Assembly (NCBI GenBank): GCA_030280995.1
Contig: JASXTE010000014.1
Coordinates: forward strand, 20,219,650-20,283,649
Reading direction: 5' to 3'
Length of the DNA: 64,000 bases
Source: Hemileia vastatrix
Taxonomy: Eukaryota > Basidiomycota > Pucciniomycetes > Pucciniales > Zaghouaniaceae
How positions within the stretch are numbered: position 1 is the first letter of the stretch; each line of letters begins with the position of its first letter. This document shows, piece by piece, positions 35,797-56,886 of this stretch. The notes beneath the pieces are model-generated. The model had not been told where the DNA came from and ran no database searches. It was given only the letters and a program-made list of their open reading frames with translations. The position numbers and the translations under genes were made by a program.

Positions 35797-35800
35797 TTTC

Positions 35801-37758: not shown

Positions 37759-37856
37759 AAAAAAAACAAAAAAAAAAATGTTAAGACATTTTAATTAATC
37801 TTAAGGAATGAAATAAAAAAATTAATTTTTATAATACATATACTGAATGAACAGTA

Positions 37857-40800
37857 TTATTTAGATTTAAATTTTTTCAAGAGATTTTTAAGATCAGAGA
37901 TTTCATTTTCTGGAATCCACTGGTCATATTCACTTGATTTATTTTTAAATCTTAATAAATACTCAACTCCCTTTTCTTTAGTAAGGTGTCTCTTTTTAAG
38001 TATCTTTTCAATTTCTGCTTTTTCCACTATTTCTTCAGGTTGCTGTTTATGCCTTCCTGATCTTCTTGGAAAGAGAGCAGTATCATTAGAATGGTATGGT
38101 TTTATAAGAGAAATAGGAAATACTGGATGTTTTCTATCATAAGGTGCATATAGAATAACCTCAACAGCATTATTACCAACCATCTTTTTAACTACAAATG
38201 GTCCAATGAATGGATCCTTCAATTTAACATTACCATTTAAATTGAAATGTAGCGTTGAAATAAGGACTTCATCACCCTCTTTGAACATTTGTTCTTTATG
38301 GGCTTTATCCCATCTTTTCTTTTCATACTCAAAAGCCTTATTTATACATTCTTGAGCATGTTTTCTGCATAGTTCCTGCATCTGAAGAAAAGATTTAGTA
38401 CCTGGATGAATATCCAATCTAGGTAACTTATTAAGAGTTTTAGCAGGGGTATTAGGTACATAACCCAACCATAACTCAAATGGCTTTTTGCCAGTGACAG
38501 AATGTACTGTACTATTATATGCAAATTCTAAACCTGGGATAAGGGTTACCCAATCATGCGTGAATTTGTCATTGTCTTTAAAATTAAGACCAAAAGCACA
38601 GTATCTTCTTATCATATCTTCTAAGGTTTGTATCATTCTTTCTGCTAGCCCATCAGTTTGTGGATGGTGTGCTGTAGAAAGTTTTAATTGACACCCTGAA
38701 ACATCCATAAGTGACGTCCAGAACTCAGAAGTAAATTTAGGATCTCTGTCAGAAACTATTGCTTTGGGGAAACCTGCTGTATTTAACATTTGTGTCCACC
38801 ATAAAAAAGCTAAGTCCTTTGCAGAAACCTCTTTGTGGGTAGGAATAAATTTACACATCTTTGTAAATCTATCTACAATTACCCAGCAGGAGTTATAACT
38901 CTTATGCCCTGCTATTGGCAAACCTGTTACAAAGTCCATGTTAATGATTTCCCATGGAGCTTTTGGTTGCTCAATTTGTTGTAATAAACCAGCCCTTTTT
39001 CCTGTTAATCTTTTAGATTTTTGACAAGAATCACATGTTTCAACATATTTCTGAACATCCTCAGACATGTTAATCCACCAAGCTGTGTTTTTTACTCTTG
39101 TTAATATTTTATGGTAGTCAAAATGACCTGCTAATATATCATCATGACATATACTTAACATTAACTCCTTCATTGAAGGGGGAATTACAATTACATTACT
39201 TAATTTTTTCCTGTAATATATAAAACCATCCTCAATGGAAAATTTTCCTTTCTCTAATTCCTCTTTATACTTATTTGGTAATGTTTTTATTAAAACATTC
39301 ATTGAAGCATTAGATGGATCATTTAATATTGTAGTTAATTTACTTAAGTCAGGATCTGAATTATAATTATCAAGAATTGATTGCATAAATTCATCCTCAA
39401 GGTCTACAATATAAATGCCATAAATGTTAATAATCTCTGATTCAGGAACATAAGCAGGATTATCATCATTATTAGGCAGAGGTACTCTAGATAACAGATC
39501 TACATTAGAGTGCAAGGTTCCTGCTCTATGTGTAATAGTCATCTGTCCTCTGTATTCTTGTACAGCTAATTGCCATCTAAACATGTGTCTATTAGGAGTT
39601 TTCATGTTTAAGAGTGACTTAACTTCACTACAGTCAGTTATTAACTCAAATTTTTGGTCTTCAAGGTAATAATGTAGCTTTTCAAGAGCCCATACTACTG
39701 CCAAACATTCAAGTTGAGTAGCACCATATTTCAATTCACCACTTCTCAGAGTACGTGAAATATAGCAGATTACTACTTCTGACATTTTACCTTCAATAAG
39801 TTGTTTTTGATGCAAAGCAGCACCCAGTCCAATAAAACTTGCATCTGTATATAACACAAAAGGTAATTGGAAATCTGGTAATCCCAAGATAGGAGCTGTC
39901 ATTAAAAATTCTTTCAACTTATTAAAAGCTTGTTGTCTTTCATTATTCCAAATGAAAGCTTCTGATTTCTTTATCAGTGTGGTCAGTGGTGCAGCAATTG
40001 ATTGGTAGTTTTTTATATATTGTCTATAATAACCACACATTCCAAGAAAAGATTGTACATCCTTCACATTTTGAGGAATGCCAATATTCTTTATTGCAGC
40101 CACTTTATTTTGGTCTACACATATTTGTAAGCCAGATACAATATGACCAAGCACTTTTAAAGATTCAAACCCAAATTTACATTTTTTCAATGCAAGGGTC
40201 ATTTTTATTTCATCCATTTTCTGAAATACTTTCCTTAAATGGATTAAGTGTTCATCAAAAGTTTTAGAGAAGACTATGATGTCATCAATGTATACCATTA
40301 ACCATCCCTCAATCATTTCATTATGGAATGTTATATCCATTAACTTTTGAAATACTGATGGAGCATTCTTTGGTCCAAATGGCATTCTGACATACTTATA
40401 AATTCCCATGTGTGTTGTTATCAACAAAAAGTTCTGTGAATTCTTTTCAACAGGAATTTGATGGTACCCTTTATTTCCACCTAGGCAACTTATATATTTA
40501 GCACCTTTAAGGGTAGCATGTATAGAGGCAATCCTTGGCAAGGGATAAATATCATCTACTGTAAATGTATTTAATGCTCTATAATCACCGCACAGTCTTG
40601 CTTTATCTTGTTCATAAGAAATTAGCACTGGTGATATTACACAATATTTTGGCGTAGTTTCAACCTTCTCAAGAATGTTCATTTTTAATAACATCTTAAT
40701 ATTATCCTCTATGTCTTTCCTCTTCATTGGTGAAGCAGGGTATGGTTTCTTTTTAAGACTAGCAGGAATATTATCCATGTCACAGGTTAAACTAATTTTC

Positions 40801-41531
40801 ATTTCATGATCTTTTACAAGGCCAAGTTCATTTGTACCATGTTCAAAAGCCATTGGAAAAGCTTTAATTAATTCCAAAATATTATCCTTCTCAGTTTCAC
40901 TTATCTGAGTGCCAAATGATGCTTTTGAAATTTCTGTTTCCAGAAGTTCCAACTCATTGGATTCTCTTCCTTTAGACGGGGAATTTGTTACTGACTCAAT
41001 GTGTAAGACAGTGTTAAAAGAATTTATTTTAAATTTCCTTTTACCATTCATGCCAATTGTAAAATTGTTATTAGCAGGGTCTAATTTTACACCAAATTTA
41101 GTCAGAATATCATTTCCAATGATAAAACAGTTACTACAATTTGTATTATCCATTACTACAAAGTCACAAGTTACCCTTACATAACCATGTTGGTGTTTAA
41201 AGAAAACAGCAGCTTTGTATTTACCAATGGGGTGTAGTACTGATCCAAAACCTCTCCAATTTTTATTTTGAAGTGGTTCAAGCTTAAACTTATATTCACT
41301 ATCAATTTTCTGTAATGTATTAGTGGAAACAACTGAACCAGCAGCTCCTGTGTCCAATACTATATTAACATTTTCACCAGAAATGATAGCTGGAACCTTG
41401 ATAGGTGTCATTCTAAAGTTATCAGCTTGTATATCCTTAATGATTTCAGCATCCTCAAAATTCATTAAAGATTCATTTGAGTCCATATTTAATATTGGAT
41501 TTTCAAAGATGGACAAATCATCTTCCAACAT
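37857..41531 (-). CDS. E pol polyprotein: protease, RT, RNase H, integrase, chromodomain
   Basis: An open frame of 1224 residues. Protease active site DTGA at 60-63; RT from about 260, with YIDD at 414-417; RNase H with TDAS at 562-565; integrase zinc finger H797, H804, C834, C837; integrase catalytic D867, D929 and E965, a DD35E spacing; chromodomain-like segment about 1165-1224. The RT motif A reads YISCLGGNKGYHQI, so the catalytic aspartate expected after CL is glycine (codon at 40489-40491); G1 keeps aspartate there. The frame is otherwise intact, but RT should be inactive. It follows gag in the same frame, separated by one TAA and four codons. Confidence 0.9.
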   Translation of the reverse strand: MLEDDLSIFENPILNMDSNESLMNFEDAEIIKDIQADNFRMTPIKVPAIISGENVNIVLDTGAAGSVVSTNTLQKIDSEYKFKLEPLQNKNWRGFGSVLHPIGKYKAAVFFKHQHGYVRVTCDFVVMDNTNCSNCFIIGNDILTKFGVKLDPANNNFTIGMNGKRKFKINSFNTVLHIESVTNSPSKGRESNELELLETEISKASFGTQISETEKDNILELIKAFPMAFEHGTNELGLVKDHEMKISLTCDMDNIPASLKKKPYPASPMKRKDIEDNIKMLLKMNILEKVETTPKYCVISPVLISYEQDKARLCGDYRALNTFTVDDIYPLPRIASIHATLKGAKYISCLGGNKGYHQIPVEKNSQNFLLITTHMGIYKYVRMPFGPKNAPSVFQKLMDITFHNEMIEGWLMVYIDDIIVFSKTFDEHLIHLRKVFQKMDEIKMTLALKKCKFGFESLKVLGHIVSGLQICVDQNKVAAIKNIGIPQNVKDVQSFLGMCGYYRQYIKNYQSIAAPLTTLIKKSEAFIWNNERQQAFNKLKEFLMTAPILGLPDFQLPFVLYTDASFIGLGAALHQKQLIEGKMSEVVICYISRTLRSGELKYGATQLECLAVVWALEKLHYYLEDQKFELITDCSEVKSLLNMKTPNRHMFRWQLAVQEYRGQMTITHRAGTLHSNVDLLSRVPLPNNDDNPAYVPESEIINIYGIYIVDLEDEFMQSILDNYNSDPDLSKLTTILNDPSNASMNVLIKTLPNKYKEELEKGKFSIEDGFIYYRKKLSNVIVIPPSMKELMLSICHDDILAGHFDYHKILTRVKNTAWWINMSEDVQKYVETCDSCQKSKRLTGKRAGLLQQIEQPKAPWEIINMDFVTGLPIAGHKSYNSCWVIVDRFTKMCKFIPTHKEVSAKDLAFLWWTQMLNTAGFPKAIVSDRDPKFTSEFWTSLMDVSGCQLKLSTAHHPQTDGLAERMIQTLEDMIRRYCAFGLNFKDNDKFTHDWVTLIPGLEFAYNSTVHSVTGKKPFELWLGYVPNTPAKTLNKLPRLDIHPGTKSFLQMQELCRKHAQECINKAFEYEKKRWDKAHKEQMFKEGDEVLISTLHFNLNGNVKLKDPFIGPFVVKKMVGNNAVEVILYAPYDRKHPVFPISLIKPYHSNDTALFPRRSGRHKQQPEEIVEKAEIEKILKKRHLTKEKGVEYLLRFKNKSSEYDQWIPENEISDLKNLLKKFKSK

Positions 41532-41543
41532 ACAGACTTCATT

Positions 41544-43136
41544 TTAATCACTATATGAGATATTTCTGTCATAATCACTTGATTCTTTACTTTTTTCAGT
41601 TTCAGTTTCAGATTCATGTTGATTTTTAACAATATTTATGTTTTTCTCACATTTGTGACCTTTGACCCAAGGTTTGTTACACCTATAACAAGTATTTGTT
41701 TCATACTTTTTTGGTACTACAGGTGCAGTAGGTTTTTTCTGCTTCTCCTGAAGTGTTTTTGAATTCTGAGTTTTTACAGGTTCAACATTTTGCTTATAAG
41801 TGGAATACCTTGATTCATACTTATGGTTTAATAATATTTCATTGCAAATATTAATAAAGTCAGAATATTCAGTAACATTTAATGTTCTAGCTACAACAAT
41901 GTCTCTGACAGATATAGGTAATTTGTATATTATCTTATCTTTCCATAAGTTAAAATCCATATGAGGCTCAATGGCTTTTAATATTTTGTTTAAATTCATT
42001 AAAAATACCATAGGTTTGTCACCATTCAACGGATTATATCTAGTCTTCTCATACAGTCTCTGCTGAGTAAGCCTGAATTTAGAACCTCCAAATTGTTTTT
42101 CAATAAGTTGTTTCCATTCAGCCCAAGAGTAGTCTCTACCCTCACTTAAGACAGCTTCAAACCATAATAAAGCAACATCCTTAAATAAAGAAATTAATTT
42201 TGATGTTATCTCTTCATCTGGTAACTTATATGAGAATTCCAAGTTGTCAATTCTTTGAATAAAATGTTGCCAATCAGAGCTGGCTTCCCCATCATAAGTT
42301 GGGTACTGATCTATTTTGGGCCAGTTCTTCTGATTGGACTTTATCTCACTAATCTTAGGTAAATTCAACAACTCATTCACTTTTGATAAATGGTCTTGTA
42401 TTTCTTCCTGCACGGATTTGTGACTTACATTTTCAGATTTGACACTACCACCAGATGGTTTTAATTGTGGTGGTACAGGGAAGGAATGAGATTCACTTTT
42501 GCCAATGAAAGGATTATTATTATATTGATTATACTTATGTTTATCCTGGTTCATCAGTAGATTGGCAGTTTCAATCTCAACTTTAGTTAATCTTTGTAGC
42601 AGCTCAGAGACACTTTGATTTGTCTGTGCAAAAGATAAATTTGTTCTTGATTCAGTTTTTAATAAATGTGTTTCATATAATTTTTCTAACTCACAAAATT
42701 TGTTTGAAAGGTCATTATATTTATTACTCAATGAATCATATTTAAGAGTTAGAGACAAATGTTCTTTCTCTAATTCTTTATTACGTGTTGCTAATTGAGA
42801 AATGTTCAATGTTAAGGATGAAATTGTATCACTAGTGAGCTTAACTGTCTGTTCCTCACAATCAGTCATTCTATTCCACAATGCTGAAACAATTCTATGG
42901 ACAGTTGGATTATTGTTAAAATATTCCATGTCCTCCTTTTCAATTCTCTCACTCTCCTGTGAACTTCTCATCTCACTAGTAGGTGGTTGCAACTGAGGAT
43001 TAACTGTATTATCATTGTATATAGTACTGTTATTATGGACAAAAGACAAGTCAGGTGTATCTACTCTAAAACCTAAATTTCTTAAATCCTCCTCTATTTT
43101 TTGTACAGATTTAACATCAATAGAATTACCTATATT
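41544..43136 (-). CDS. E gag
   Basis: The frame is open from a TAA at 43137-43139 to a TAA at 41544-41546. An N-terminal helical region with coiled-coil character precedes the capsid-like core NWPKIDQYPTYDGEASSDWQ through LPISVRDIVVARTLN. Near the end is a zinc knuckle, CYRCNKPWVKGHKC, in the spacing CX2CX7HXC. No convincing ATG opens it, so it may be made as an extension of the upstream ORF, or start at an internal site. Pol continues in the same frame after the stop. Confidence 0.8.
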   Translation of the reverse strand, partial: NIGNSIDVKSVQKIEEDLRNLGFRVDTPDLSFVHNNSTIYNDNTVNPQLQPPTSEMRSSQESERIEKEDMEYFNNNPTVHRIVSALWNRMTDCEEQTVKLTSDTISSLTLNISQLATRNKELEKEHLSLTLKYDSLSNKYNDLSNKFCELEKLYETHLLKTESRTNLSFAQTNQSVSELLQRLTKVEIETANLLMNQDKHKYNQYNNNPFIGKSESHSFPVPPQLKPSGGSVKSENVSHKSVQEEIQDHLSKVNELLNLPKISEIKSNQKNWPKIDQYPTYDGEASSDWQHFIQRIDNLEFSYKLPDEEITSKLISLFKDVALLWFEAVLSEGRDYSWAEWKQLIEKQFGGSKFRLTQQRLYEKTRYNPLNGDKPMVFLMNLNKILKAIEPHMDFNLWKDKIIYKLPISVRDIVVARTLNVTEYSDFINICNEILLNHKYESRYSTYKQNVEPVKTQNSKTLQEKQKKPTAPVVPKKYETNTCYRCNKPWVKGHKCEKNINIVKNQHESETETEKSKESSDYDRNISYSD

Positions 43137-43724
43137 TTAATTATCAGTATTATGTCTAATCTGAGAGGGTAATTTACTTACCAAGGGATGGTTGCCAGTC
43201 CTGATTTTTGGTGCTTTTTTCCCTTGTAAGGGTGAGCTGAGGAAGTCAGATGAGGGGGTGGATCCCTGTTGCAACTGTGGCTTGTCCACTGTTGGTGAAA
43301 CCAGTCCCATTTCCATTTGTCTACCAGGATTTTCTCCTGGGAGTGAGTGGACCCTCCTTGGGTAGGGGGTTGCTGATTTGATTGACTGGGCTGGCCTCCC
43401 TTTAATTCTGCCATTGCCTGATTCATCTGCTGAAATCCTACCTTGCAATTGTTTTGCAACTGCTCTACTTCTTTGAACATGAGAGATTTTGATTCCTCTA
43501 GCTTCAGAACCTGTTTGGCCAGGTGGGACAGTTGATCCTGAAGAGGAGGAGACGTCTTTTTGATAGTTATCTTTTTTAAGAGGGCATCCTTTTCCTCTAT
43601 ACTCATGCTTTCTGGTTGGGGGTACTGTTGTCCCTCCATGGTGATGTCCTGGAAAGTTTTTGTTAGCTTTAGACCTGGTATTATAAGCAGGCTGTTCACT
43701 TACACTACCCTGGGGAGCACTCAT
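43137..43724 (-). CDS. E N-terminal ORF, frame a (in frame with gag)
   Basis: A 195-residue frame starts MSAPQGSVSEQPAYNTRSKA, a start typical of gypsy gag proteins (NTRSKA), and ends at TAA 43137. Gag follows in the same frame. It overlaps frame b for almost its whole length. The text is basic, Ser/Pro/Gly rich and without a domain. Confidence 0.5.
   Translation of the reverse strand: MSAPQGSVSEQPAYNTRSKANKNFPGHHHGGTTVPPTRKHEYRGKGCPLKKDNYQKDVSSSSGSTVPPGQTGSEARGIKISHVQRSRAVAKQLQGRISADESGNGRIKGRPAQSIKSATPYPRRVHSLPGENPGRQMEMGLVSPTVDKPQLQQGSTPSSDFLSSPLQGKKAPKIRTGNHPLVSKLPSQIRHNTDN
43178..43699 (-). CDS. E overlapping ORF, frame b, coiled-coil protein
   Basis: A likely start is MEGQQYPQPESMSIEEKDAL. 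A coiled coil follows (LQDQLSHLAKQVLKLEESKS) and the motif KWKWDWFHQQW, then HPYKGKKHQKSGLATIPW and stop. G1 has the matching frame at 30072-30554. The two elements agree better in this frame than in frame a. Function unknown. Confidence 0.55.
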   Translation of the reverse strand: MNSLLIIPGLKLTKTFQDITMEGQQYPQPESMSIEEKDALLKKITIKKTSPPLQDQLSHLAKQVLKLEESKSLMFKEVEQLQNNCKVGFQQMNQAMAELKGGQPSQSNQQPPTQGGSTHSQEKILVDKWKWDWFHQQWTSHSCNRDPPPHLTSSAHPYKGKKHQKSGLATIPW

Positions 43725-44219
43725 ATTGTTCAGAATAACAATATTTTACGTCTACAAAAGGAAAAAACTCTATGGAATTAGTAGACAAAAGATATTAGTA
43801 ATTATATTACTAATAAAAAAGCAATGGAGCTTACCCTGAATTTATATCTTTATTTATTTAAATAAAATATAAGAAAATTCGAAAAAATCTGTTAAAAATA
43901 TAATAATAAGTTTAACTAGACCTCTATAAGGGTGAATAATTAGCTTACCAAGCTTTAGCCAAATACCAATTTAATTGGGTGTTATATTGGTGTCCAAATA
44001 CCAAGTGAAATTGGGTTTATATTGGGTACAGTTACTACTGTAAATATCTAATTTTTATGATAAAAAATTAGTACAATTATTATAAGGGTTCTTTTCCGCA
44101 ATCAATGAGCTATGATGACCCACTAATATGCAGCAGACCCAAATATTTGGTTAATTTTGAGTTGTACTAAGGTAAAAATCATGTCCCAAGGCTTATACTA
44201 AATAATAAGTAAAATATAA

Positions 44220-44232
44220 GGAAAGACCCCCA
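44220..44232 (-). promoter_or_regulatory. Candidate primer-binding site of E
   Basis: On the minus strand TGGGGGTCTTTCC starts two bases after the 5' LTR end. It has the TGG start of a tRNA-primed site; the tRNA is not identified. Confidence 0.45.
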
Positions 44233-44234
44233 AT

Positions 44235-45411
44235 TGTCAGTATAGTCTAGTATATAAGTATGATATAATAGTGTTATTTTATGGTCCTACTACTTATTAA
44301 TAAATGATTTAGTGATTAAACCTCAGGGGAAGACTAATAGAATAGTTATACTCAAATAAAACTCACAATACTTGGATTTAAATGCGTGCTAGTGGTGGAA
44401 AATAGAAGAATAAAATATAGTTATAGCTTTTATAAAGATAATATCAATTTATAAGGGCTTTATAATATATTTCTGAATACTAATAATTGTATTGTAGTGT
44501 TTGTTTGAAGTGTAGTAATTGAATGATGATAATAAACCGTCAAAATCCCTCCTTACTTATACCCAAATCCACTGGAGTGCACAGACCTTCAATCCAGATG
44601 ATGTCACTGCTATCCCCGGCAATTACAGCACTGTGAGGGCCCATCACCTCCCCATGGCGTCCACTTCAAGCAGTTTCAACACCCAGACCTCCAGTAAGGA
44701 CCCTCCATCACTATTAATAATAACACAGAGTCATACCATAAATAGAAAACCCAGATAAAAGCGGATACCATAAAGAAACAGGTAAAATAAATGATCAAAA
44801 AGAGATTTAATGAAACTAAAAGCATATAAAGGAAACAAATAGAATGTCCAAGCCCCCAATAACATCCCCAAGCATCCACATTAACCCAAAAACATCTTTC
44901 CAACCCATAAATCCGTGAATAACCATCCAAGGAAGTAATTTTAGTTGTCCAAACTGGGTGTATGCACCTGATATAGGTGTCTATGCTTCTGTAGGCGTTG
45001 TGAGTCCACTGATTTCGTCCATATGACCTAAAATAAGCAGAAAAACAAAGGTTATAGGCTATTAAGGGGCTAAAACCCACTTATATACCTAAATATACAT
45101 AATATACTGCATATTTCACTGAATATGAGATTTATGTATACATATAAGCTTATGTATGTCAATAATTACTTCATATCACTTAAGATAAGTATATTATGAC
45201 TCCATTAACACCTTAATAAGTATTATTAGGCCATGGATAAGCTATTTAAACTATTATAAATTATATAATAGAATAATAATTATATATATATATAATAAAA
45301 TAATATATATTATTATTTTAACCTTATTTTTAAGATATAAGCTTAATCTAGTTAAGGTTATCTTATTTTAAGCATAAGAAATACTCAGTCCTAAGGATAT
45401 TTAGGCTGACA
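44235..45411 (-). repeat. 5' LTR of E (element orientation)
   Basis: See the 3' LTR. Starts and ends TGTCAG...CTGACA and is followed by the GAGGC duplication at 45412-45416. Confidence 0.95.
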
Positions 45412-45416
45412 GAGGC

Positions 45417-46110
45417 TTTGGCTGAAGAGGAAGTTAGGGAGAAGAAGGAGGAGAAGAATTTGGTGCAGGTTCCCAAACAGGAGAGGGACCCAATGGTGGA
45501 GCAGCTGGCTGATCTGACAAAACAGCTGCACATTTTTGTCCAGGAGGCCAAGAAGTTTAATAAGGCACCTTCTCAGCCAAGAGAGTTTGAAAGGAGGGCT
45601 GGTAGGAGTGATCCTTGGGTTTGCTCTTATTGCAGTAGGAGGGGGCACAGGTCCAATGATTGTTGGGCATTGAACAGAGATGTGTCTGAAGGAAAAGTGG
45701 AGTTTGATGGCAGGGTTTTTAAGTTCCCTGACGGTTCTTTTGTGAAGCCCAGTGAGGGGCAGGCTCCTGTTGATTTGGTCAGGAGAAGAGGTGGTCTAAA
45801 TCAAAGGAGGCCAAGGTTTGAGGAGATTCCTGATCAGGGGAAGTCTTCTGTTAAGGTAGATGAGGACGTCAAGGGAAAGGGGAAGGAGGTCAATAAGGTC
45901 TCTTTTTCTACTTCCTTTGGTGGTTTGGAGTTGTATTCTTGTGGTGGACAGTCAAGTGGTGAATGCTTGGCTGGTGTTTATGATGTGGAAGCAGGGAAGG
46001 TTGGTAGGCCTAAGAGCAGTTCTCAGGCCCAACCAAAGCCAAATTCTTAAAAGGGTGATCCTAAGCTGAGTGCAGCTAGGAAGAGGTACAGCAAAGAGGA
46101 GCTGTACAAG
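45417..46110 (+). pseudogene. D gag, 3' part with zinc knuckle
   Basis: It continues D gag after E. A coiled stretch (VEQLADLTKQLHIFVQEAKK) precedes a canonical CX2CX4HX4C zinc knuckle, CSYCSRRGHRSNDC. The frame meets a TAA at 46048-46050 (PNS-stop) and then stays in the same frame into the protease region, so this is a single point stop. Confidence 0.8.
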
Positions 46111-47115
46111 ATGCAGAAGGGTATGGCTGACATGGGCCCCCCTAGTTTTGGTGCATTGGACCTGAATGGTGAGCCAATGCCAATGGAGGTGGATTCTGAC
46201 TCCGAGGAGGATGTCCCTTTGGCTTCATTGCCAAAGCCTGTTGGAGTCAGAGGTTCTGGTGAGGGATCTGGTTTGGTTCCTGTTAATGGTAAATCTGTTG
46301 GTGGTGCTGGTCCTCAAGAATCTTCTAGGACCAAGGTGGTGAAGCAAAGAGCTCACTTTGAGAGGCCAGTAGTGTCTGGTCAAGTTAATGTTATGGACTC
46401 TGTCCTGGAAAGGATGAACCAGGGTCAGGTTTCCCTATCTTATGGGGAATTGTATGCTATCAGTCCAGGGTTGGCTGATAGGCAGAAGAAGTTGTTGACA
46501 AGGAGAAGGGTTTCTTCTGGTGAGGTAGAATACATTTGTGATTCTGCTGAAAAGTTTGGTGAGGGGTTGGAAACTCATTTTTCTGCTCCTCTGGGATATG
46601 TCAATGTCACTCTGAATGGCAGGGAGGCAAGGGCATTGGTGGATTCAGGTTCTCAGATAAACCTGATTTCTTTGTTTGAGGCAACTCATATGGGCCTCCC
46701 CATCAAAACTGGTATTGGTGGGAATTTGAGAGGGATTGGTGGCCATGTCACTGAATTGGTTGGAACTTCAGAGTTTGTGAAGTTAGATGTTGGAGGAGCC
46801 TCAGGGAAGGTTCATTTTTATATTGCTAAAGGTAATGTAAAAGCAGTTTTGGGTGGGCCATTCTTGATGGATTTTCAGGCAAGAATAGGTTATCAATTTG
46901 ATTTGGGAATCAGTTTGGAGTTGACTGGTGAAAACAAAAGGAGGCTTCACATGAGGTTATCATCCCCTGGAGAGGATGGTTGGGAGACTAGGCCTGGTTT
47001 ATCTTCAATGTGCCAGTGCATGGACTGCTGCAGGAGAAGGAAGGAAGTGGGTGCTGCCTCTGGTTTTTTGGAGTGCGGCTCAGGCTCTATTGAGAGTCTG
47101 TCTTTTTTAGAGTAA
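46111..47115 (+). CDS. D aspartic protease region
   Basis: A 334-residue frame, in phase with gag. An acidic segment (EVDSDSEEDVPLASLPK) leads to the retropepsin domain: YVNVTLNGREARALVDSGSQ with active-site DSG, then the flap region and AVLGGPFLMDFQ. The C-terminus has CQCMDCCRRRKE. The stop TAA at 47113-47115 overlaps the next ATG as TAATG. Confidence 0.8.
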   Translation: MQKGMADMGPPSFGALDLNGEPMPMEVDSDSEEDVPLASLPKPVGVRGSGEGSGLVPVNGKSVGGAGPQESSRTKVVKQRAHFERPVVSGQVNVMDSVLERMNQGQVSLSYGELYAISPGLADRQKKLLTRRRVSSGEVEYICDSAEKFGEGLETHFSAPLGYVNVTLNGREARALVDSGSQINLISLFEATHMGLPIKTGIGGNLRGIGGHVTELVGTSEFVKLDVGGASGKVHFYIAKGNVKAVLGGPFLMDFQARIGYQFDLGISLELTGENKRRLHMRLSSPGEDGWETRPGLSSMCQCMDCCRRRKEVGAASGFLECGSGSIESLSFLE

Positions 47116-50100
47116 TGAGGGCTGATCACCCTAGTGCTACAACCTCTCCCCGAGATGAGGAAATCCCAGGTTGTAGTAGGTCAGCTCCCTTGGAGATATA
47201 CCAAGTGGACTTTCAACTTTCTCTTTTTAATGTTTCTCTTCTCTGCAAGTATTCATCAAGTTTTTTATCAAGTCTCTGTTCTCTCTCAAGATTCTTAATT
47301 ATTTTTAATTCAAGTTTAAAGAAGAAGATTGGTTATATATCTTTATTGAAAGATATGCGGAAAAGCTTTGGGGCGGTGAGATTGGGGTCTAAAAGTAAGT
47401 CCTCCCAATTGTGCACCGCTAGGGTTTCTTCTACACCTTTCAAAAACATTACCTGGGCCACACCTGTGAGCATTGGGGAAACCCCTGGTTATTTTTGTAG
47501 GACAGAAGAAAACTCAAGAAAAGAAGATAAAAATTTCAAGATAATTCATGAAAATCAAGAAAAAAATCTGAAGATAATGAAGAAAGAAGATGCAAAATAT
47601 TTTTGTGAAGATCATCAAGATCTATTTTTGGGCCTCCAGCATGAGGTTAAACTGCAGAAAAATTTGAAGAGAGAAGATCATCAAGATCAATTTTTGGGCC
47701 TCCAGCATGAGGTTAAACTGCAGAAAATGTTGAAGAAAGAAGATCATCAAGATCAATTTTTGGGCCTCCAGCATGAGGTTAAACTGCAGAAAAATTTGAT
47801 GAGAGAAGATCATCAAGATCAATTTTTGGGCCTCCAGCATGAGGTTAAACTGCAGAAAATTTTGAAGAAAGAAGATCATCAAGATCAATTTTTGGGCCTC
47901 CAGCATGAGGTTAAACTGCAGAAGATGTTGAAGAAAGAAGATCATCAAGATCTATTTTTGGACCTCCAGCATGAGGATAAACTGCACAATTTTAGAAGAT
48001 GTGATTCAGAAGATGAATCAAGATTTGAAGATTTGGAAGTTGGAAGTGAGGATGAAGATGTGGAATTGGGTAAAAGTTTTGGAGTGGTGAGATTGGGGTC
48101 TAAAAGTAAGTCCTCCCAATTGTGCACCGCTAGGGTTTCTTCTACACCTTTCAAAAACATTACCTTGGCCACACATGTGAGCAATGGGGAAACACTTGAT
48201 TTTCGTTCCACGTCTGGTGGTGAAGATTTCCTGAAGATCCCTCAAGTTGAAGGTGGAGCGGCAAAGTATAAGAAGGTAGCGCAGAAGATTAGGCCTGTCA
48301 ATGAGCCTATGCCTGTGGGTTTGAATCCGCCTTTGAAGAGACCTCCTTTGTCAAGAGATCCGTACTGTACTCCTTTGGTGAAGAACCCTCCAGAATTTGT
48401 AGAGACGGGGAGGGTGACCGTGGAAAGATTGAAAGTTGTTAATTTTGGTCCTGATGGGTGGTTGTCTGAGGAAGAAAAGAAGTTGTTGTTGCACGTTATT
48501 GTGCTAAGGGAAAAAGCGGTGGCATTTGTTGAGGAGGAAAGGGGTGTTCTGAAGCACTCTTATGGGGAACCTTACTTGATTCCTGTTGTTTGTCATGAAC
48601 CTTGGCAAATCAAACCGATTCCGATTCCAGCCGCTATCAGAGAGGATTTTGTGGAGATTATTAGGGAAAGAGTCAGGACTGGGTTATATGAACAATCAAC
48701 ATCCAGTTACTCAAGTCCGGTGTTCTGTGTAAAGAAGCAGAATGGAAAGTTGAGGGTGGTTCATGATCTTAGAGCCTTGAATAGAGTCACTATCAAGGAC
48801 GCTGGTATGCCGCCAAGTGCAGAGGATTTTGTTGAAGCTTTTGCTGGAAGGGTGTGTTATGGTTTGGGTGATATTATGGGTGGTTATGATGAGACGGAAC
48901 TACATAAGGATTCAAGGCCTCTCAAAACTTTTGAGACTCCTTTGGGAAGATTTCAGCTCACTAGGTTGCCTCAAGGAGCAACTAATTCAGTGGAAGTTTA
49001 TCAAGCACAGATGGCTTGGATTTTGCAGGATGAGGTTCCTTCTCATGCTGGTATTTTTATTGATGATGGTGGAATTAAAGGACCATCCACTGATTATGGT
49101 AATGAGGTGTTATCGGAGAACCCTGGAATAAGGAGGTTTGTGTGGGAATATGCAATAACTCTAGAGAGAGTGTTGTTCAGGATTGAAGAGGCTGGTTTGA
49201 CCATTTCAGGGTCAAAATTCTGTTGTTGCGTTCCTGCTTTGGAAATTCTGGGTCATGTGGTATGTAAAGAGGGAAGGATTATGGCGAAGAAGAAGATTAA
49301 TAAAATTCAGGCATGGCCAAGGCCTAAAAATACTACTGAAGTCAGAGGATTTTTGGGTGTATGTGTATATGTCAGGATTTTCATTAAGGATTTTTTGTTG
49401 ATGGCTTCACCTTTAAGAAGGTTGACCAGAAAAGATGCAGATTGGGAATGGACGGAAGAGTGTGAAGAGGCTTTTCAGAAGCTGAAAAAGGTTGTTGGTG
49501 AAGATATAATTCTTCACAAGTTGGATTATGGTGTTGGTGCTGGAAAGATTTATCTGGCAGTGGACTCATGCTATATTGCTTCTGGTGCTGTTTTGTCTCA
49601 GGAGGATAAGACTGGGAGGGTTAGGCCAGTAAGGTATGAGTCTGTGGTGTTTAATGAGGTGGAATCTAGGTATTCTCAACCTAAGTTGGAATTGTGTGGT
49701 GTAGCTAAAATTTTAAAGAAGCTACAGATGGTTTTGTGGGGGCAGCATTTTGAGCTGCAGGTGGATGCAAAATCTTTGGTTCAGATGATCAATACACCTA
49801 GTCTTCCAAATGCTCCAATGACTAGGTGGTTGGCATTTATTCAACATTTTTCTTTTGACCTGGTACACAAACCAGGTAAAACTTTTACTATGCCTGATGG
49901 ATTATCAAGGAGGCCACCTACAGATGAGGATTCTGATTCTGAAGAGTTTGACAAAGATGTTCCAGTGATTAGGGCCAGCACAAAGGGTGCTGAGGGTTTT
50001 TCTTTCCTCCCCCATGAGGCTAAACTGGATGATTGTTCTGACCTCCCCCAAGAGGTTAAACTGGCTGGATCTTATCTTGATTCTGGTGATCAGGATGTTT

Positions 50101-50651
50101 TTGTTGATGAAGATGGAGTTGTTGTTTGGGACAGCTCAAAATTGGAAAAGGGTGTTTTTGTTAGTGGACTGGATTTTCACAAGGTTCAGTGGAAAGAGAA
50201 GGACGTGCCAAAATTTAAGGATTGGTGTCCTGGTTGGGCTTCTCAATTGGCTCATGTTCACACTGGTGATTTTGATGACAGAGTTGTACCCTTGGATGTT
50301 GTTTTGTTGGATTTTGAAGATGAGACCTGGGGTCAATCTGGGTTTTATTTTATTTTGGTGGAATATCTGTTGTCCTTGGAGAGGCCAGATATTTGTGATG
50401 ATGATACTTGGTTGGCAATCAAGAAGAAGAGTCCTGGATTTTATGTGTCAGGAAGGCGCTTGATGAGAAGGAGAAATCCTAATCCTCAAGTGGTGGTGAC
50501 TCAGAAGAAAGGTCAAGAATTGGTTTTGAGGTCTTTTCATGAAGACCTTGGTCATAGAGGCTTTGGGGAGACTTATAGAAGAGTAGCAGACAGATTTTGG
50601 TGGCTGGGTATGAAGTTGGCTGTGCAGGGTTGGGTTCAATCTTGTGAATAA
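47115..50651 (+). CDS. D pol: reverse transcriptase, RNase H, integrase zinc finger
   Basis: A 1178-residue frame starting at the TAATG overlap. The first 370 residues hold two copies of a KSFG...ATPVS segment around a 22-residue tandem repeat. RT motifs include SSPVFCVKKQNGKLRVVHDL, GLGDIMGGYDE (motif A aspartate present) and IFIDDGG (FIDD variant of YxDD) near residue 647. RNase H follows (YLAVDSCYIASGAVLSQ), ending in KTFTMPDGLSRRPP, then two LPHEAKL-type motifs. The integrase finger begins HEDLGHRGF and stops at SCE-TAA, just before the last zinc cysteine. Confidence 0.85.
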   Translation: MRADHPSATTSPRDEEIPGCSRSAPLEIYQVDFQLSLFNVSLLCKYSSSFLSSLCSLSRFLIIFNSSLKKKIGYISLLKDMRKSFGAVRLGSKSKSSQLCTARVSSTPFKNITWATPVSIGETPGYFCRTEENSRKEDKNFKIIHENQEKNLKIMKKEDAKYFCEDHQDLFLGLQHEVKLQKNLKREDHQDQFLGLQHEVKLQKMLKKEDHQDQFLGLQHEVKLQKNLMREDHQDQFLGLQHEVKLQKILKKEDHQDQFLGLQHEVKLQKMLKKEDHQDLFLDLQHEDKLHNFRRCDSEDESRFEDLEVGSEDEDVELGKSFGVVRLGSKSKSSQLCTARVSSTPFKNITLATHVSNGETLDFRSTSGGEDFLKIPQVEGGAAKYKKVAQKIRPVNEPMPVGLNPPLKRPPLSRDPYCTPLVKNPPEFVETGRVTVERLKVVNFGPDGWLSEEEKKLLLHVIVLREKAVAFVEEERGVLKHSYGEPYLIPVVCHEPWQIKPIPIPAAIREDFVEIIRERVRTGLYEQSTSSYSSPVFCVKKQNGKLRVVHDLRALNRVTIKDAGMPPSAEDFVEAFAGRVCYGLGDIMGGYDETELHKDSRPLKTFETPLGRFQLTRLPQGATNSVEVYQAQMAWILQDEVPSHAGIFIDDGGIKGPSTDYGNEVLSENPGIRRFVWEYAITLERVLFRIEEAGLTISGSKFCCCVPALEILGHVVCKEGRIMAKKKINKIQAWPRPKNTTEVRGFLGVCVYVRIFIKDFLLMASPLRRLTRKDADWEWTEECEEAFQKLKKVVGEDIILHKLDYGVGAGKIYLAVDSCYIASGAVLSQEDKTGRVRPVRYESVVFNEVESRYSQPKLELCGVAKILKKLQMVLWGQHFELQVDAKSLVQMINTPSLPNAPMTRWLAFIQHFSFDLVHKPGKTFTMPDGLSRRPPTDEDSDSEEFDKDVPVIRASTKGAEGFSFLPHEAKLDDCSDLPQEVKLAGSYLDSGDQDVFVDEDGVVVWDSSKLEKGVFVSGLDFHKVQWKEKDVPKFKDWCPGWASQLAHVHTGDFDDRVVPLDVVLLDFEDETWGQSGFYFILVEYLLSLERPDICDDDTWLAIKKKSPGFYVSGRRLMRRRNPNPQVVVTQKKGQELVLRSFHEDLGHRGFGETYRRVADRFWWLGMKLAVQGWVQSCE
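47361..48197 (+). repeat. 126-bp direct duplication flanking the 66-bp array in D pol
   Basis: 47361-47486 and 48072-48197 are nearly identical (both contain GTCTAAAAGTAAGTCCTCCC and ACCGCTAGGGTTTCTTCTAC). The copies bracket the tandem array, which suggests the array arose with, or was captured by, a local duplication. Confidence 0.8.
47605..47990 (+). repeat. 66-bp tandem array, about six units, in D pol
   Basis: Units start every 66 bases (stem starts at 47633, 47699, 47765, 47831, 47897 and 47963), encoding a 22-residue repeat with DHQDQFLGLQHEVKLQK. Each unit carries CCTC-CAGCAT-GAGG followed by a base and TAAACTG. Units differ only at a few sites. The period is a multiple of three and the frame stays open. 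Confidence 0.95.
50006..50063 (+). repeat. Two stem-loop modules at the RNase H-integrase linker of D
   Basis: CCTC-CCCCAT-GAGG-C-TAAACTG at 50006-50027 and CCTC-CCCCAA-GAGG-T-TAAACTG at 50042-50063, encoding LPHEAKL and LPQEVKL. Confidence 0.9.
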
Positions 50652-51599
50652 TTTCAAAGAAGAAGTCACTTGAAACCTAAAGAGGTGGGCCGTGCTACTA
50701 ATGAATCAACTGTTTTTGGAAGGGTCAGTCTGGATGCTGTCCATATTAAAGAGGGCAGGTATAAATACTTGATTGTTGCTAGGTATGATTTGTCTGCTTG
50801 GGTTGAGGCAGTGCCTCTGGTTAATTTTACTGCCAAGAATGTGGCAGAGTTTTTGAAGAAGGAGTGGATTTATAGGTATGGGTTGATGAAGTTGGTGACT
50901 GTTGATGGTGGGCCAGAGTTTGGTGCCGAATTTAAAGAAGCTGTGGCTAGTGTTGGTTCTAGGGTTAGAGTGGCTACACCGTATTATCCTGAAGCTGAAG
51001 GCATGGTTGAAAGAGGCCATCAAGTTATCAAGAATGCTTCGGTGAAGATGTGCGGAGATAGTGCTGAAAAGTGGAGGCATTATTTACCCTTGGTTTTATT
51101 TGAGGATAGGGTCACTGTGAAGAGGACAACTGGCTATTCTCCTTATGAGTTAATGTTTGGTCAAAAAGCCGTTCTACCAGTGGACTTGGAAGCTGTCTCT
51201 TATCTTGGAATTGATTGGGATGACGTGCACTCAACAGAAGATTTGCTCTGTGCCAGGATGCAACAGTGGGAATGTAGAGAGGAATGTCAAGAGAAGGCAT
51301 ACTCTAGAATGATGAAGATTAGGAATCAATCAGTCAGATACTGGGACAAGAAGTTAGCTTATAGACTCAGGAATCCCTTGAAACCTGGTTGTTTGGTTTT
51401 GGTGTATAATAGAAGTTTGGAGAGTCAGTGGGGGAAAATGTTTGCTGACAGATGGAATGGACCTTACAGAGTCAGATCTCAGGTGTCTGGAGGTTCTTAT
51501 GTTTTGGAAGAGCTGAATGGTGCAGTCTTGAAAAAGAGGGTGGCTGCAGACCAAGTGAAGAGGTTTTATCCCAGAGGCACTAGGCATGAAGAAGATTGA
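50652..51599 (+). pseudogene. D integrase core and GPY domain
   Basis: It continues the pol frame after one TAA at 50649-50651; the next codon, expected cysteine of the zinc finger, is phenylalanine. The core has SLDAVHIKEGRYKYLIVARY, VDGGPEFGAEF and EAEGMVERGH, giving the D, D and E residues. A GPY/F domain follows (WGKMFADRWNGPYRVR), then a basic end. Only the single stop and lost cysteine argue against function. Confidence 0.8.
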
Positions 51600-52129
51600 C
51601 TCCGCAATGAGGATAAACTACGGACCATTCTTTAATTTTGGTTTTTTGTGGTGATGCTATGCATCTGTTTGTTGGAAACTTTTGTTAGAGGGTACCCATG
51701 GGTGGGGCTTCTAGATTTGATCTTGGCAAGTGTGGGGGTGACTGATGGGCTGGCTGCTCTATCAACAGTTACCCCAGATTGTCTGTTTCAAACCCTTTCT
51801 CTTAATTTGGTTGAATCCTAGTATTGGTTTATTTTCACAGGTTTTAGTCCTCTATGACTTTAAACTGGAAATTCCTTTGGTTTTCATGTGCTGGTCTCTT
51901 CACTCTTATTGGTTTTGGTTTTTTTGTGTTGGATGTTGGATTTTTGTTAGAAGGTACCCAGGGGGGGCTTCTAGATTTTATTTTGGCAAGTGTGGGGGTA
52001 ACTGATGAGCTGGCTGCTCTGTAGAACAGTTACCCCAGAATGTCTGTCTCAAGTCTTTTGTTTTTCCTAGTTGAATTCTAGTTCTGTTGTTTATTATTCA
52101 GGTTTTAAGTCCGCTATGACTTTAAACTG
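51599..52129 (+). repeat. 3' region of D: stem-loop modules and 95-bp repeats
   Basis: A module overlaps the integrase stop (51599-51620, stem imperfect). Full modules AGTC-N6-GACT-T-TAAACTG lie at 51846-51867 and 52108-52129. Two copies of a 95-bp repeat (GGGGCTTCTAGATTT, CTTGGCAAGTGTGGGGGT-like, GGCTGGCTGCTCT, ACAGTTACCCCAG) lie at 51686-51775 and 51952-52045; a third diverged copy is at 54807-54902. No sense-strand gene is present. Confidence 0.8.
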
Positions 52130-52400
52130 GTTTGGGACTGGCTTCTTTATCTTTGGTTCTTTCAGATTGGTGGTGGATCACTGGTGGTCTCCTGTCATTT
52201 TTACTTATTGGAGGGAGCCCACCCAGTGATCATTTCTATGGACCGGACTTTCCCTTATTGGACCATCTATGGAGCTGGACTTTCTTTGATTTGGCAGTTA
52301 TGTTTTTGCTAGATAGTAGTTTTAGATTATTTTCTTTTTTCTCTTTTTTTCTTTCATTTTTTATGGGGGTTGTTAAAATTATAAAATCAAAAATATAGGG

Positions 52401-52665
52401 TGTTACCACATCAGGGTCACCTGGATGTGGGCAAGCATTGGTGGGGAAAGGCTCATCAATTGGCTGGGCAATGCTATTTTATTTTTATATATTATTTATT
52501 TCATGTGTTTCTGTGTTTCATTATTTTTTATTATCTTCTGAATTTCTAAATTTTTGTTTTTTTCTGTTAATCATTTAAAAGATTTAATTGTGTATCCACA
52601 TCAAGGTGCACTTGGATGTGGGTAAGGTATCAGGGGTTCAGCTCATCAATTGACTGGGGGATACC
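52401..52665. repeat. Pair of 75-bp repeats in D
   Basis: 52401-52475 and 52591-52665 share CCACATCA, GGATGTGGG, then CTCATCAATTG and ACTGGG. The span up to about 52860 is otherwise AT-rich and non-coding. Confidence 0.65.
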
Positions 52666-52882
52666 ATTTGTATTATTTTTTTATATTTTATTTTATTTCA
52701 TTTATGTTATTTCATTTCATTTTAATTATTATTTTTTTATTTTTTTAATTTAGTATATCAGTAGACCGTAAAAAAAAAATAAAAATAAAATAAAAATAAA
52801 TAAAAATAAAATAAAAAAATTCTGAAATTATTTTTATTATTTGTTTTATATTATTTTTATGTTTCTAATCTTTTGCAGGAGC

Positions 52883-54452
52883 TCATTGTCTGGATGAGGA
52901 AGCTTCTGGAGGCTGGTCCGGATTGTGATGATGTTTTTGTTTTTTGTTGGGATTGTGGGAAGCACTGTGTTCTTTGAAGTGCATCCTGCTGGAGAGATTA
53001 TAGGGATTGTAATGATCAGGGATTGGATTAGAGGGAAGTTCAGAGGAGGAGGAAGAAGAGGCAGGAATGGAGTGCTGGAGGGTGTGTTTAATGATCCTAG
53101 ACATCTTCCAGTGGTCGTCCAGTAGGCGCTTTCTCAGGGATTTTTCAAAGTCATTCAAGGGTCCATGGAGGGCGAAGGCTTTTAGCATATTGGAACACAT
53201 GGTGCTTAGGTGTTTCTTCATGTCTCCATAATCCAGGGTCAAAGAAGTTTCAAGAGTTTGGCCAACTCCAATAATAGATTCAGGAGGAGGGGTGCCAACT
53301 AGACAAGAAGAATTGGATCAGTAATTATTTTTGTTGAAGAAAAGGAATAATTAATTTGGTACTCACAGATTGGAAGCTCATCAAATCTGTAAGCAGCTGG
53401 GATTTGGATCTCTGACAATTTTGTTATGGCCATAGTGGGTGGATCAACTAGGGAAAGATACGGATTCTCATGGTCTTCCTCTGAAGGATCCTGAGAAGGT
53501 GAACTGGGATGATGAGGTTCCTGGGGCCTAGTTGGAGCAGTGAGATTGTTGTTGTTGTTGTGGTTGTTATTTCTGTTGGATTCAGCTGGAGGAGGTGCTG
53601 GTGATGGAGTACCAGGGTTGTTAAAGGATGGAGCAGGAGAGGGGGATTTGTAAGCAGACTGCTCTTTTCTGGATGGAGAATTTGAAGAGATGGAACTGTC
53701 AGAAGAGTAGTTGGCTGACAGAGGAGAGGTGTAGTTTCTTTGTCTTAGTTGGGGACAAAGTTGTTGTTGTGGAGCAGTGTGTGGTGTTCTGGTTTCTTCT
53801 TGGGGTTCTCTGGCAGTTCTCTTAGAAATCTGGGAAATTTTGGTGTTTTGGATTTTGGAAGGGTGGATTGCATTGCTCTGGGAGCAGTAGGAGGTAGTTG
53901 GGTTGAGTTTTTATTGTTATCTGGATGAATTTGGCTATTTTCTGGCCGTTTTTGGAGGTTTTGGCCCTTATTTTTGCTGTTTGGTGAGGCGGGCGGGCCT
54001 CCCGACGTCGGCCGGGCCGCCTGGACGCGGTCTAGAAGCCTAGGGGTTGATTTTGAAGCTTTTGGAGCTAATTTAGCAGTGATAAAAGCAGTTTCTTGAG
54101 AAGCTAAGGCTGGTCTTTTTGGAAGAGTGCGGGAAGCTGAGCTTCTGGATCTTCTGAAAGGAGCTGAAGATAGAGAGGAAGAGGATGGACCAAGTTCTGG
54201 AGACCTGGTAGGGGATCTGGAGATGTACTTGTGAGAAGGAGAAAGCGGAGGAATAGGATAGTGGGCATCTATGTCACATTTCTTTTTTTTGGAATAGCAA
54301 GAGTCACAATCCCTGTTGTAGAATTTGGCTTCTGGATTTGGAAGAGTGAATGTGCAAGGTCTGCACATGTGTATGCACTGTTTGCAGGCATAGTCCCTTG
54401 GAGCAGTGAAGCAAGGAAGAGTAGAAGAGTCAACAGCAGGGGATCCAGACAT
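52883..54452 (-). CDS. D antisense gene 1: Zn2Cys6-pattern protein
   Basis: The start at 54452 gives MSGSPAVDSSTLPCFTAPRD and a cysteine cluster, CKQC-X6-C, 15 residues, CDSC-X6-C, the spacing of fungal Zn2Cys6 DNA-binding domains (an additional cysteine lies in the first X6). A long Ser/Pro/Arg-rich disordered region follows. The frame changes near 53745-53830 (frameshift or unseen intron) into an Asn/Pro-rich region (NNNHNNNNNL-like), then ELPI, a 68-bp intron at 53299-53366 (GTGAGT...CTAG), and a last exon with LDYGDMKKHLSTMCSNMLKA that stops at 52883. Suggests a DNA-binding regulator made antisense to the element; partner or target unknown. Confidence 0.6.
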
Positions 54453-54599
54453 GATTTGTGTGGTGAAAGGTGATGAAAAGGATAAGAGAAGATTTTGTCA
54501 GTGATGAGTAGAAGATGAAGTGAAGGTGGACGCTCCGTGGGTCTGGCTGTGTGTGTATTGCATGAAATTGGCTGGGTCAGATTCATGCAAGATTCTGAC

Positions 54600-55043
54600 A
54601 GTCCTCTATGACTCTAAACTGGAAATTTTATCAGTCCATAAAGACTCTAAACTGAAAAAGCTATGGTATCAAGGTAGTCCGTCAAGACTTTAAACTGAAT
54701 ACTGTGTTAGTCTCCCAAGACTTTAAACTGAGGGTTGTAAGTCCCCCAAGACTATAAACTGAGGGAAAAGTTTTTGTTGTTGGAGTTGTTTTGAAAGATT
54801 GGTTGAGGGTATTCACAGGGGGAGCCTCCGAATTTAGCAAAGGCAAGTTTGGGGGTAATTGATGGGCTGGCTGCTCTATTCACAATTACTCCAGAATGTT
54901 AGTTTTTTCTCTGTGTCTTAATGTGGTTGATCTCTGGTTCTGGGTTCATGATTTAGGTTTTTGAGTCCCCCAAGACTTTAAACTGAGGGTTTTTGAGTCC
55001 CCCAAGACTATAAAATGAGGTTAGTCCCCCAAGACTTAAAACT
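54600..55043 (+). repeat. Cluster of stem-loop modules between the two antisense genes of D
   Basis: Eight modules of AGTC, six bases, GACT, one base, TAAACTG or a near variant start at 54600, 54633, 54676, 54709, 54740, 54964, 54996 and 55023. Loops vary (CTCTAT, CATAAA, CGTCAA, TCCCAA, CCCCAA) while stem pairing is kept. They lie upstream of antisense gene 1, in the 3' non-coding part of the sense transcript. Confidence 0.9.
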
Positions 55044-55105
55044 AAGGGTTGTTTGTGGTTACATCCTATAGAGGGTGTGGTTAATTTTTCTTTTCTGAAT
55101 CAAAC

Positions 55106-55746
55106 TCAAGTACTAGTGGAATTACAGAGGGAATCAAGAGATGAAATGAAGTGTTCAGAATTGGCCTTGAACGGGTGAATGAGGTGTCTTCTGTTCTCAA
55201 TGTCCTGTGGATCTCTAGCAGGAGTGGATTGGAAGTAGTGAAGCAGAAGTTGTTTCTGTTGAGATGTGTGTTGTTGGAACTTGGCCTTGATAGTGGGCAA
55301 GTGCGTTGGTGTTGGTGGTGCAATGGATCCTACATTGTTATCATCACTATCAGAAGAGGAAGGAACTGAGAAGTTATCAGTTTTAAAATTGAAGGAAGGA
55401 ATGAATGTTCTTTACCATCAGATGGACCAGGGATGGGGGAACTAGTTGTTTTATGGGTTGTGGCACTCTTCTGGGAAGGGTGGAGCTTTTTGATTAATCT
55501 GGGTATCAGGATGGATGGCCTAGATCTTTTGGTGCTGGCAGAATAAGGACCAGGTTGAGGTGGAGGTGAATCTGTTGTGGAAGAAAGTGGACAAGGTCTG
55601 TGGCAGGTCTTCTTTATGGAGTGGCAGACATTGCAGGACGTTCTGTATGGATGGACAGGTGGTGTCATGGCGCAGATTAAATTATTGTCAATGCAGTATT
55701 GGCAGGGGCCCATTTCAGAGGCAGATTTGGGAAGGAGGTTAAACAT
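55106..55746 (-). CDS. D antisense gene 2: small Zn2Cys6-pattern protein
   Basis: Exon 1 (55746-55416) starts MFNLLPKSASEMGPCQYC; the cluster is CQYC-X6-C, 12 residues, CNVC-X6-C, matching the Zn2Cys6 spacing CX2CX6CX12CX2CX6C. An 86-bp intron (55330-55415, GTAAAG...GTAG) joins in phase to exon 2 (55329-55106), giving 184 residues that end SLDSLCNSTST. The frame is also open upstream into the 3' LTR, so the start could be earlier. Shared cluster design suggests common origin with antisense gene 1. The short length lacks the usual activator domain. Confidence 0.6.
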
Positions 55747-55784
55747 GGTGGTTGGATGAAGAAAGAATGCGGAAATTCTCAATT

Positions 55785-55796
55785 GGAGGGAGGATG
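55785..55796 (+). promoter_or_regulatory. Polypurine tract of D
   Basis: GGAGGGAGGATG directly before the 3' LTR. Confidence 0.7.
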
Positions 55797-56886
55797 TGGT
55801 CTTCCAACATTGGCAGGGGCCTTTGTTGTGTGATTTGGTGCTGTTTGTGCATGTCTTAATTGACATCTGTTAAGGAATTTGGTATTTTTCTGGTTTTATT
55901 CCGTGGATATTGTGTCTGCCGGTATGTGGGTACTATCATTGGATAGCCCTGGTTTTTCTCTATATTTTATGTCTTGAAGAAATTTTTCATATTCTGAGTT
56001 TTAAGGGGTCATTTCCTCATTTTTCATTTATAAAAGATTGATGTTTAATTTTGTTTTTCGTGTTTTATGGGCTAACCTTAAGTCTTAGGGTTAAGTGCTT
56101 AGTACCATTGGATAGAGCTAATTTTTCTCTATATTTCATGTCTCAATGTTGTTATAATGAAATTCCGTGTTTTAAAGGTTTTAGTAGTTGTAGCTAATTT
56201 TTCTAAGTAGATTAGTGGTTTTTATTGGTTTTCTGGCTTCAGGGAGGCCGGGCCGCTTCAGGCGGCATCTCCGACATTGGGCGTCCCGCCCACCTCTGTT
56301 TTAGGAGGTTTTGGAGTGCTCCAGGAGGGTTTTTTATGCAATTTGGCAGGTACAGGCGCCAGATTGGTGGGTGCACATGGGCTCTTAGTTAGTGTTCTGT
56401 GTGTACATAGTGAATAAGACAGTTTGGGGCAACCTTAATCATCATACAACCATCCGGAGGTGATCTCATTGTTCCTCACTCAGTTTTCACTGTTTTCTGG
56501 CCACAATTGGCTGTGTTTGTTGCAAGTGAGTTCTTCATTTAACTTAACTTTAGCAACTGTTTTCTCTGTCATAGTCTTGCAAGCTATAGCAAGTATTATT
56601 GCTGTCTCTGGTGTGGATTTGCAGCCTACATCAAGTATCTTTGCTGTCTCTGGTGTGGACTTGTTCTACATTTCAGTTCTTTGGTCTGGTAGTCTATCTG
56701 GGGACTACTTTCTTGGCTCATCAAGCAGTCAAGTTTGTTAAAAAGGGGCTTTAGCAAAACAGGAACCAACTTACTTTAGCAAGTAAATCTCACTTTATTT
56801 TTCTAAAGGGACAGGGGATTTTCTCTCTGGTTTTTCTCCAACTCCCTTGGTCAAGCCCTATAGCTAGTACTATAGGATTGTCTACA
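55797..56886 (+). repeat. 3' LTR of D
   Basis: About 98% identical to the 5' LTR by hand count. Antisense gene 2 starts about 50 bases away and reads away from it, so an antisense promoter in this LTR is possible (inference). Confidence 0.9.

Follow-up and report, generated by a model that had tools for sequence, protein, structure and literature searches.

The window analysed here is a 64,000-nt stretch of the Hemileia vastatrix genome (assembly GCA_030280995.1, contig JASXTE010000014.1, positions 20,219,650 to 20,283,649 of the forward strand) and contains a Ty3-type long terminal repeat (LTR) retrotransposon, hereafter D, in which a 22-base module is present in 19 copies. This module is sharply delimited and conserved as a unit, under a constraint acting mainly at the nucleic-acid level, and we tentatively regard it as a multi-copy cis-acting recognition site of D, selected as nucleic acid and most likely read in double-stranded DNA.

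All 19 modules lie at 47633-55044 on the plus strand (Table 1), and each consists of a 4-nt arm, a 6-base loop, the complementary arm, one spacer base and the tail TAAACTG. They are divided into two classes by their arms, eight copies having CCTC/GAGG and ten having AGTC/GACT, while the copy at 51599 is mixed, with three of the four pairs and one tail departure. In the region 45412-55795, TAAACTG on the plus strand is accompanied by a perfect 4-bp dyad at the set spacing in 16 of 16 cases and is absent from the minus strand, and 500 dinucleotide shuffles of this region contained 0.60 tails on average and not a single module. The best unrelated word found across loop lengths of 3-8 and tail distances of 0-3 had six copies, the number expected from a six-unit tandem array with a period of 66 bp, as compared to 16 for the module. 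The tail word was encountered once, without a dyad, on the minus strand of the 5′ part of D (position 36110) and is absent from both LTRs.

All eight CCTC copies are read in frame with pol. The ten AGTC copies, all of which are outside gag-pol, represent all three frames, some of them being located inside open frames that are short (87 codons at most). Due to the fact that six CCTC copies form the single 66-bp array and several AGTC copies are local near-duplicates, with those at 54709-55044 having downstream bases in common, there are fewer than 19 independent copies, perhaps ten or eleven contexts as judged from the flanks rather than computed. The original prediction of about 19 copies on one plan, occurring in pol, at the integrase stop and through the 3′ region, with eight CCTC/GAGG copies all coding and only three of four pairs at 51599, agrees with these counts and positions. 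It also described the ten AGTC/GACT copies as non-coding, which is correct in the sense of outside gag-pol, some of them being in the short open frames, and the loop length and tail as fixed, which is true of the 16 TAAACTG copies, each with a 6-base loop, but not of the tails at 51599, 54996 and 55023.

The identity of the module is 0.76 as opposed to 0.33 and 0.29 for its flanks (14 of the 19 copies, five array copies being excluded), and the arms are identical within each class (10/10 AGTC and 8/8 CCTC). Among the ten non-coding copies the mean pairwise difference amounts to 0.00 in the arms, 0.09 in the tail, 0.10 at loop positions 5 and 9, 0.56 at loop positions 6-8, 0.54 at positions 10 and 15 and 0.67 in the flanks, the random expectation being 0.73. 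Since fixed and variable positions stand side by side within 22 bases, recent copying alone does not explain the pattern. For the analyses of coding change and pairing 15 of the 19 copies were used, with four array copies excluded. The stem is not generally extended beyond the arms, as the next outer pair is standard in 4/15 copies and the next inner pair in 1/15.

The coding founder copies vary only at Q/P, H/Q and V/A/D codons, with CTC, GAG, AAA and CTG constant; in that pol open reading frame (ORF) only 5 of the 103 leucine codons outside the modules are CTC and 11 are CTG (the shares of 11% for CTC and 16% for CTG count the modules' own codons). All the substitutions among the coding copies are amino-acid-changing and occur at positions which are also variable in the non-coding copies, so the constraint is mainly on the nucleic acid and not on the peptide.

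In the alignment of 15 distinct rows, 98.3% of the 60 cells are paired, and the covariation score of 0.429 was matched by none of the 500 shuffles. The number of paired cells and the number of cells with a change on both sides were likewise above 500/500 shuffles, although relatedness alone can beat shuffles on all three measures. For the number of pairs changed on both sides and for that of pair types, however, 387 of 500 shuffles did at least as well, and shifting the partner by one column still left a single pair changed on both sides. Between the classes both members are different in pairs 1-14 and 2-13, pairs 3-12 and 4-11 are invariant, and the copy at 51599 is intermediate between the classes, with one pair broken. 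The paired change is true but thin as support, being one class contrast and not many events. The same change would be produced by a dyad DNA site or by template-switch copying of the arms; the latter is a documented mutational route which can fix stem pairing and yield multibase compensatory changes, as described in PMC8794818, and the conclusions to be drawn from the paired change are limited by it. Within a class the arms do not vary, although loop positions 6-8 and the flanks vary widely, whereas drift would be expected if the stem needed pairing only; no G-U pairs were detected in the arms of the 15 rows.

Two of the 19 modules were folded as isolated RNA and gave weak hairpins of -3.8 and -1.7 kcal/mol, not more stable than shuffles (z-scores of -0.50 and +0.36). 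The repeated unit u2 together with its module (251 nt) folded no better than shuffles either (z -0.14), and there is no folding excess in the main AGTC cluster at 54460-55100 (mean z of 0.03 on the plus and -0.03 on the minus strand). No Rfam family was found at the gathering score within the 64-kb window; a match to MIR8024 on the minus strand, overlapping the repeated modules, was rejected as sub-threshold (E 0.0066, 29.5 bits with a cut-off of 57.3). The expectation that the stems change together on both sides stands for two of the four pairs between the classes, as a single contrast with no change within a class. The folded RNA or single-stranded DNA element proposed on that basis keeps a plan far from chance and the paired class change in its favor, but has the weak hairpins, the lack of G-U pairs and the fixed arms against it.

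As to the form in which a protein would read the module, duplex DNA or a folded RNA, we lean, tentatively, to DNA, with a hairpin in the sense RNA as a close rival. DNA is favored due to the fixed arm sequences, the half-site centers 10 bp apart, the weak RNA stem, two zinc-cluster-like ORFs on the minus strand in the stretch separating pol from the 3′ LTR, and the parallel in Retand elements (see below). The duplex would be read as a dyad with a fixed side contact: a dimer may bind the two half-sites, which are identical and have their centers about one helical turn apart, and TAAACTG may be contacted by the same protein or by a partner. The likely readers would be the two zinc-cluster-like proteins encoded antisense, and the sites could be used to control the expression or the silencing of D itself; two related proteins could also explain the two half-site classes. 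Both antisense ORFs contain the pattern C-x2-C...C-x2-C-x6-C (BLASTP between the two, E 0.001), and ORF 2 has a weak match to Zn_clus. The space between them contains eight of the ten AGTC modules, at distances of about 150-590 bp upstream of the ORF 1 start (first ATG at 54452). ORF 1 has two overlapping frames at 53745-53910, with no intron discernible by eye. It is a rather speculative extension that D encodes two zinc-cluster proteins in antisense and also carries their docking sites, about 19 in number and matched to them in two specificities, which would constitute an element-wide system of self-regulation or anti-silencing.

Several observations weigh against a DNA site read by these proteins. 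The single orientation in 19/19 copies is not needed by such a site, although tandem duplication or jumps of the reverse transcriptase would preserve it. Nine copies are in pol or at its end, distant from the antisense ORFs, and two half-site classes with one tail require an extra assumption. Zn2Cys6 proteins usually recognize CGG triplets, from which the half-sites of the module differ. The BLASTP match between the antisense ORFs spans 37 positions only, ORF 2 is far below the cut-off for Zn_clus PF00172 (E 0.38, 11.3 bits with a cut-off of 21), and the scanned pieces of ORF 1 gave no Zn_clus match, the last exons of both ORFs being outside the scan. None of the antisense pieces scanned had a Pfam match above the cut-off, and homologue searches with the first exon of either ORF found none.

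The single orientation favors a stem-loop in the sense RNA, repeated along the genomic RNA, whose UAAACUG tail would be single-stranded and which would be bound by Gag or by a different protein of the element; the copies would then serve, for example, as dispersed packaging signals, a concept known from PMC6281560, or in RNA export. The both-sided change at two of the four pairs and the spread of the copies within pol and through the 3′ region fit this explanation as well, and so does a 10-bp hairpin nearby (see below). Nevertheless, it is considered possible rather than probable, as the two isolated modules fold weakly, no pair changes within a class despite the varied loops, no wobble pairs occur, and no folding excess was detected either in the region of the main cluster or around the u2 module. 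It is improbable that the modules are a copying artefact of little or no function, spread and homogenized in their arms through switches of template in the course of reverse transcription or replication. According to PMC8794818, template switching can fix the pairing of stems and produce compensatory changes of several bases, and the tandem arrays and the constant orientation are in line with it, but a neutral copy should decay evenly, and here loop positions 6-8 and the flanks have diverged by 0.56-0.71 with 0.00 in the arms and 0.00-0.09 in the tail.

A peptide motif, L/V-x-x-E/D-x-K-L, for instance a polyprotein cleavage site at the boundaries of the pol domains, would account for the coding copies being in one frame between the protease and the reverse transcriptase, between RNase H and the integrase and at the end of pol, and a similar peptide, V-x-x-D-x-K-L, would result from translating most of the non-coding copies in one frame. 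We consider this very improbable, and an account based on the peptide only is largely refuted, because ten copies are outside gag-pol in all three frames, the wobble bases are fixed with the amino acids varying, and no match is present in the 84 linkers extractable from 120 relatives. When searched anywhere in the protein, [LV]..[ED].KL occurs in 34 of 121 proteins (the 120 relatives and P0121, a translation from this window without a match) as compared to 20 after one shuffle. The module is also very unlikely to be the target of a small RNA from the host or the element, for which it has about the right length (an inference only): with loop positions 6-8 varying, one small RNA could not match every copy, and the window has no Rfam family at the gathering score, although an undescribed small RNA is still conceivable.

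Three repeats of about 230 bp each, u1-u3, all end in a module. Their agreement is 19-21 of 22 positions in the module and 38-41 of 45 in a hairpin, with 36-45 of 66-67 in the intervening stretch. The hairpin belongs to a three-copy repeat (51690-51800, 51950-52062 and 54806-54915) and has a 10-bp stem around the nearly invariant inner stretch ATGRGCTGGCTGCTCT; two copies of the repeat are located 3′ of pol and one between the antisense ORFs. There is one both-sided change in the hairpin and two G-U pairs which are standard only on the sense strand, and all three copies of it are more stable than shuffles (z -2.94, -3.48 and -2.41), making some structure of the sense RNA near the modules plausible. 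A separate repeat of about 75 nt (52402-52477 and 52593-52667) forms a stable first hairpin with one both-sided change (z -3.40 and -2.30), and its second part folds differently between the copies. A second stem of the repeats h1 and h2, which appeared to covary by eye, was dropped, as the minimum-energy fold of h1 itself is different. A single strong hairpin is predicted at 52170-52240 (z -3.91), and the 66-bp module array is bracketed within the pol ORF by a 135-nt direct repeat with 92% identity (47356-47490 and 48067-48201).

Table 1 Coordinates of element D, its modules and the antisense ORFs in the window
Feature	Position	Strand	Remarks
Ty3-type LTR element D	34706..56886	+	LTRs 34706-35796 and 55796-56886
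Nested LTR element C	36570-45411		Interrupts D
Six CCTC/GAGG modules	47633..47984	+	One per 66-bp in-frame tandem unit, between protease and reverse transcriptase; starts 47633, 47699, 47765, 47831, 47897, 47963
Two CCTC/GAGG modules	50006..50063	+	RNase H-integrase linker; unlike flanks; starts 50006, 50042
Mixed module ACTC/GAGG, tail TAAACTA	51599..51620	+	Pol frame; starts on the last base of the codon terminating the second pol ORF
AGTC/GACT module	51846..51867	+	3′ end of repeated unit u1
AGTC/GACT module	52108..52129	+	3′ end of repeated unit u2
Five AGTC/GACT modules	54600..54761	+	Upstream of antisense ORF 1 (first ATG); starts 54600, 54633, 54676, 54709, 54740
Three AGTC/GACT modules	54964..55044	+	First closes unit u3; starts 54964, 54996 (tail departure), 55023 (tail departure)
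Antisense ORF 1	52883..54452	-	Zinc-cluster-like cysteines near the start; exon boundaries by eye
Antisense ORF 2	55106..55746	-	Related cysteine pattern; intron by eye

D is a Ty3-type LTR retrotransposon, as it possesses paired LTRs, identical at 1072 of 1091 positions, and ORFs on the plus strand with Pfam matches to aspartyl protease, RVT_1, RNase H and Integrase_H2C2; no Pfam match was found in 50652-51599, where the integrase core is expected. At its integrase zinc-binding domain this copy of D is disrupted, the pol ORF being terminated by an in-frame stop at 50649-50651. Scoring was performed on the 7988 candidates sharing most words, and the best 120 of 583 matches were considered. The best 18 of the 583 show 68-75% identity and cover 66-73% of the query, and those named among them are from Puccinia, except for one record labelled as a bacterial metagenome-assembled genome, which points to a probable rust fungus or near relative as the host. 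Single-sequence patterns of the reverse transcriptase segment confirmed no relative in viral or prokaryote contigs; a separate pattern scan of viral contigs gave at least 120 stretches, and the one match in each of the 80 listed was taken as chance. The RNase H-integrase linker of D is 221 aa long with a median of 140 aa among the 84 linkers, but it is not unique in its length since some relatives reach 303 aa. Directly after the 5′ LTR, TGGCGCCCAACGTGGGG at 35797-35818 resembles a tRNA primer-binding site, putatively of the tRNA-Lys type. G+C-rich patches occur in the AT-rich D at 53985-54040 (antisense ORF 1) and 35150-35215 (LTR), with the word GGCCGGGCCGC common to both by eye.

No work on such a module was found in the literature as judged by titles and abstract openings, which is no proof of its absence from print. 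VANDAL transposons have many copies of a short motif per element, bound by the element-encoded VANC, but these are DNA transposons, their motif and protein are, as far as we are aware, unrelated to those of D, and binding in D is putative. If the proteins of D bind its sites, it would be a retrotransposon parallel to such motif-plus-protein systems of DNA transposons. D resembles fungal Zn(II)2Cys6 systems (PF00172) in its dyad half-sites and in the cysteine pattern of two antisense ORFs, and differs from them in the non-CGG half-sites, the domain match below the cut-off and the fixed asymmetric tail. The packaging signals of RNA viruses, described in PMC6281560 as many sequence-structure motifs with a common recognition motif along the genome, are similarly dispersed, but they are recognized by the coat protein, whereas D has arms of fixed sequence and a weak stem. 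As presented in PMC11963269, Ty3 elements are known to carry repeats and antisense ORFs in the region from pol to the 3′ LTR, but what these do is not known. In the Retand-type Ty3 elements of plants, DNA binding is predicted for the proteins of the antisense ORFs, and tandem repeats are frequent downstream of pol, up to the 3′ LTR (PMC11963269), and D shares with them the long region, the antisense ORFs and the tandem repeats (PMC11963269; PMC7264820). Retand is, however, a plant lineage with a TRP28 domain (PMC11963269; PMC7264820), and D differs from it, as far as Retand is described in PMC11963269, in possessing a sharply bounded dyad-plus-tail module with copies also within pol. D offers this compact, sharply defined module of two classes together with its candidate readers in one element, which makes the question of function directly testable.

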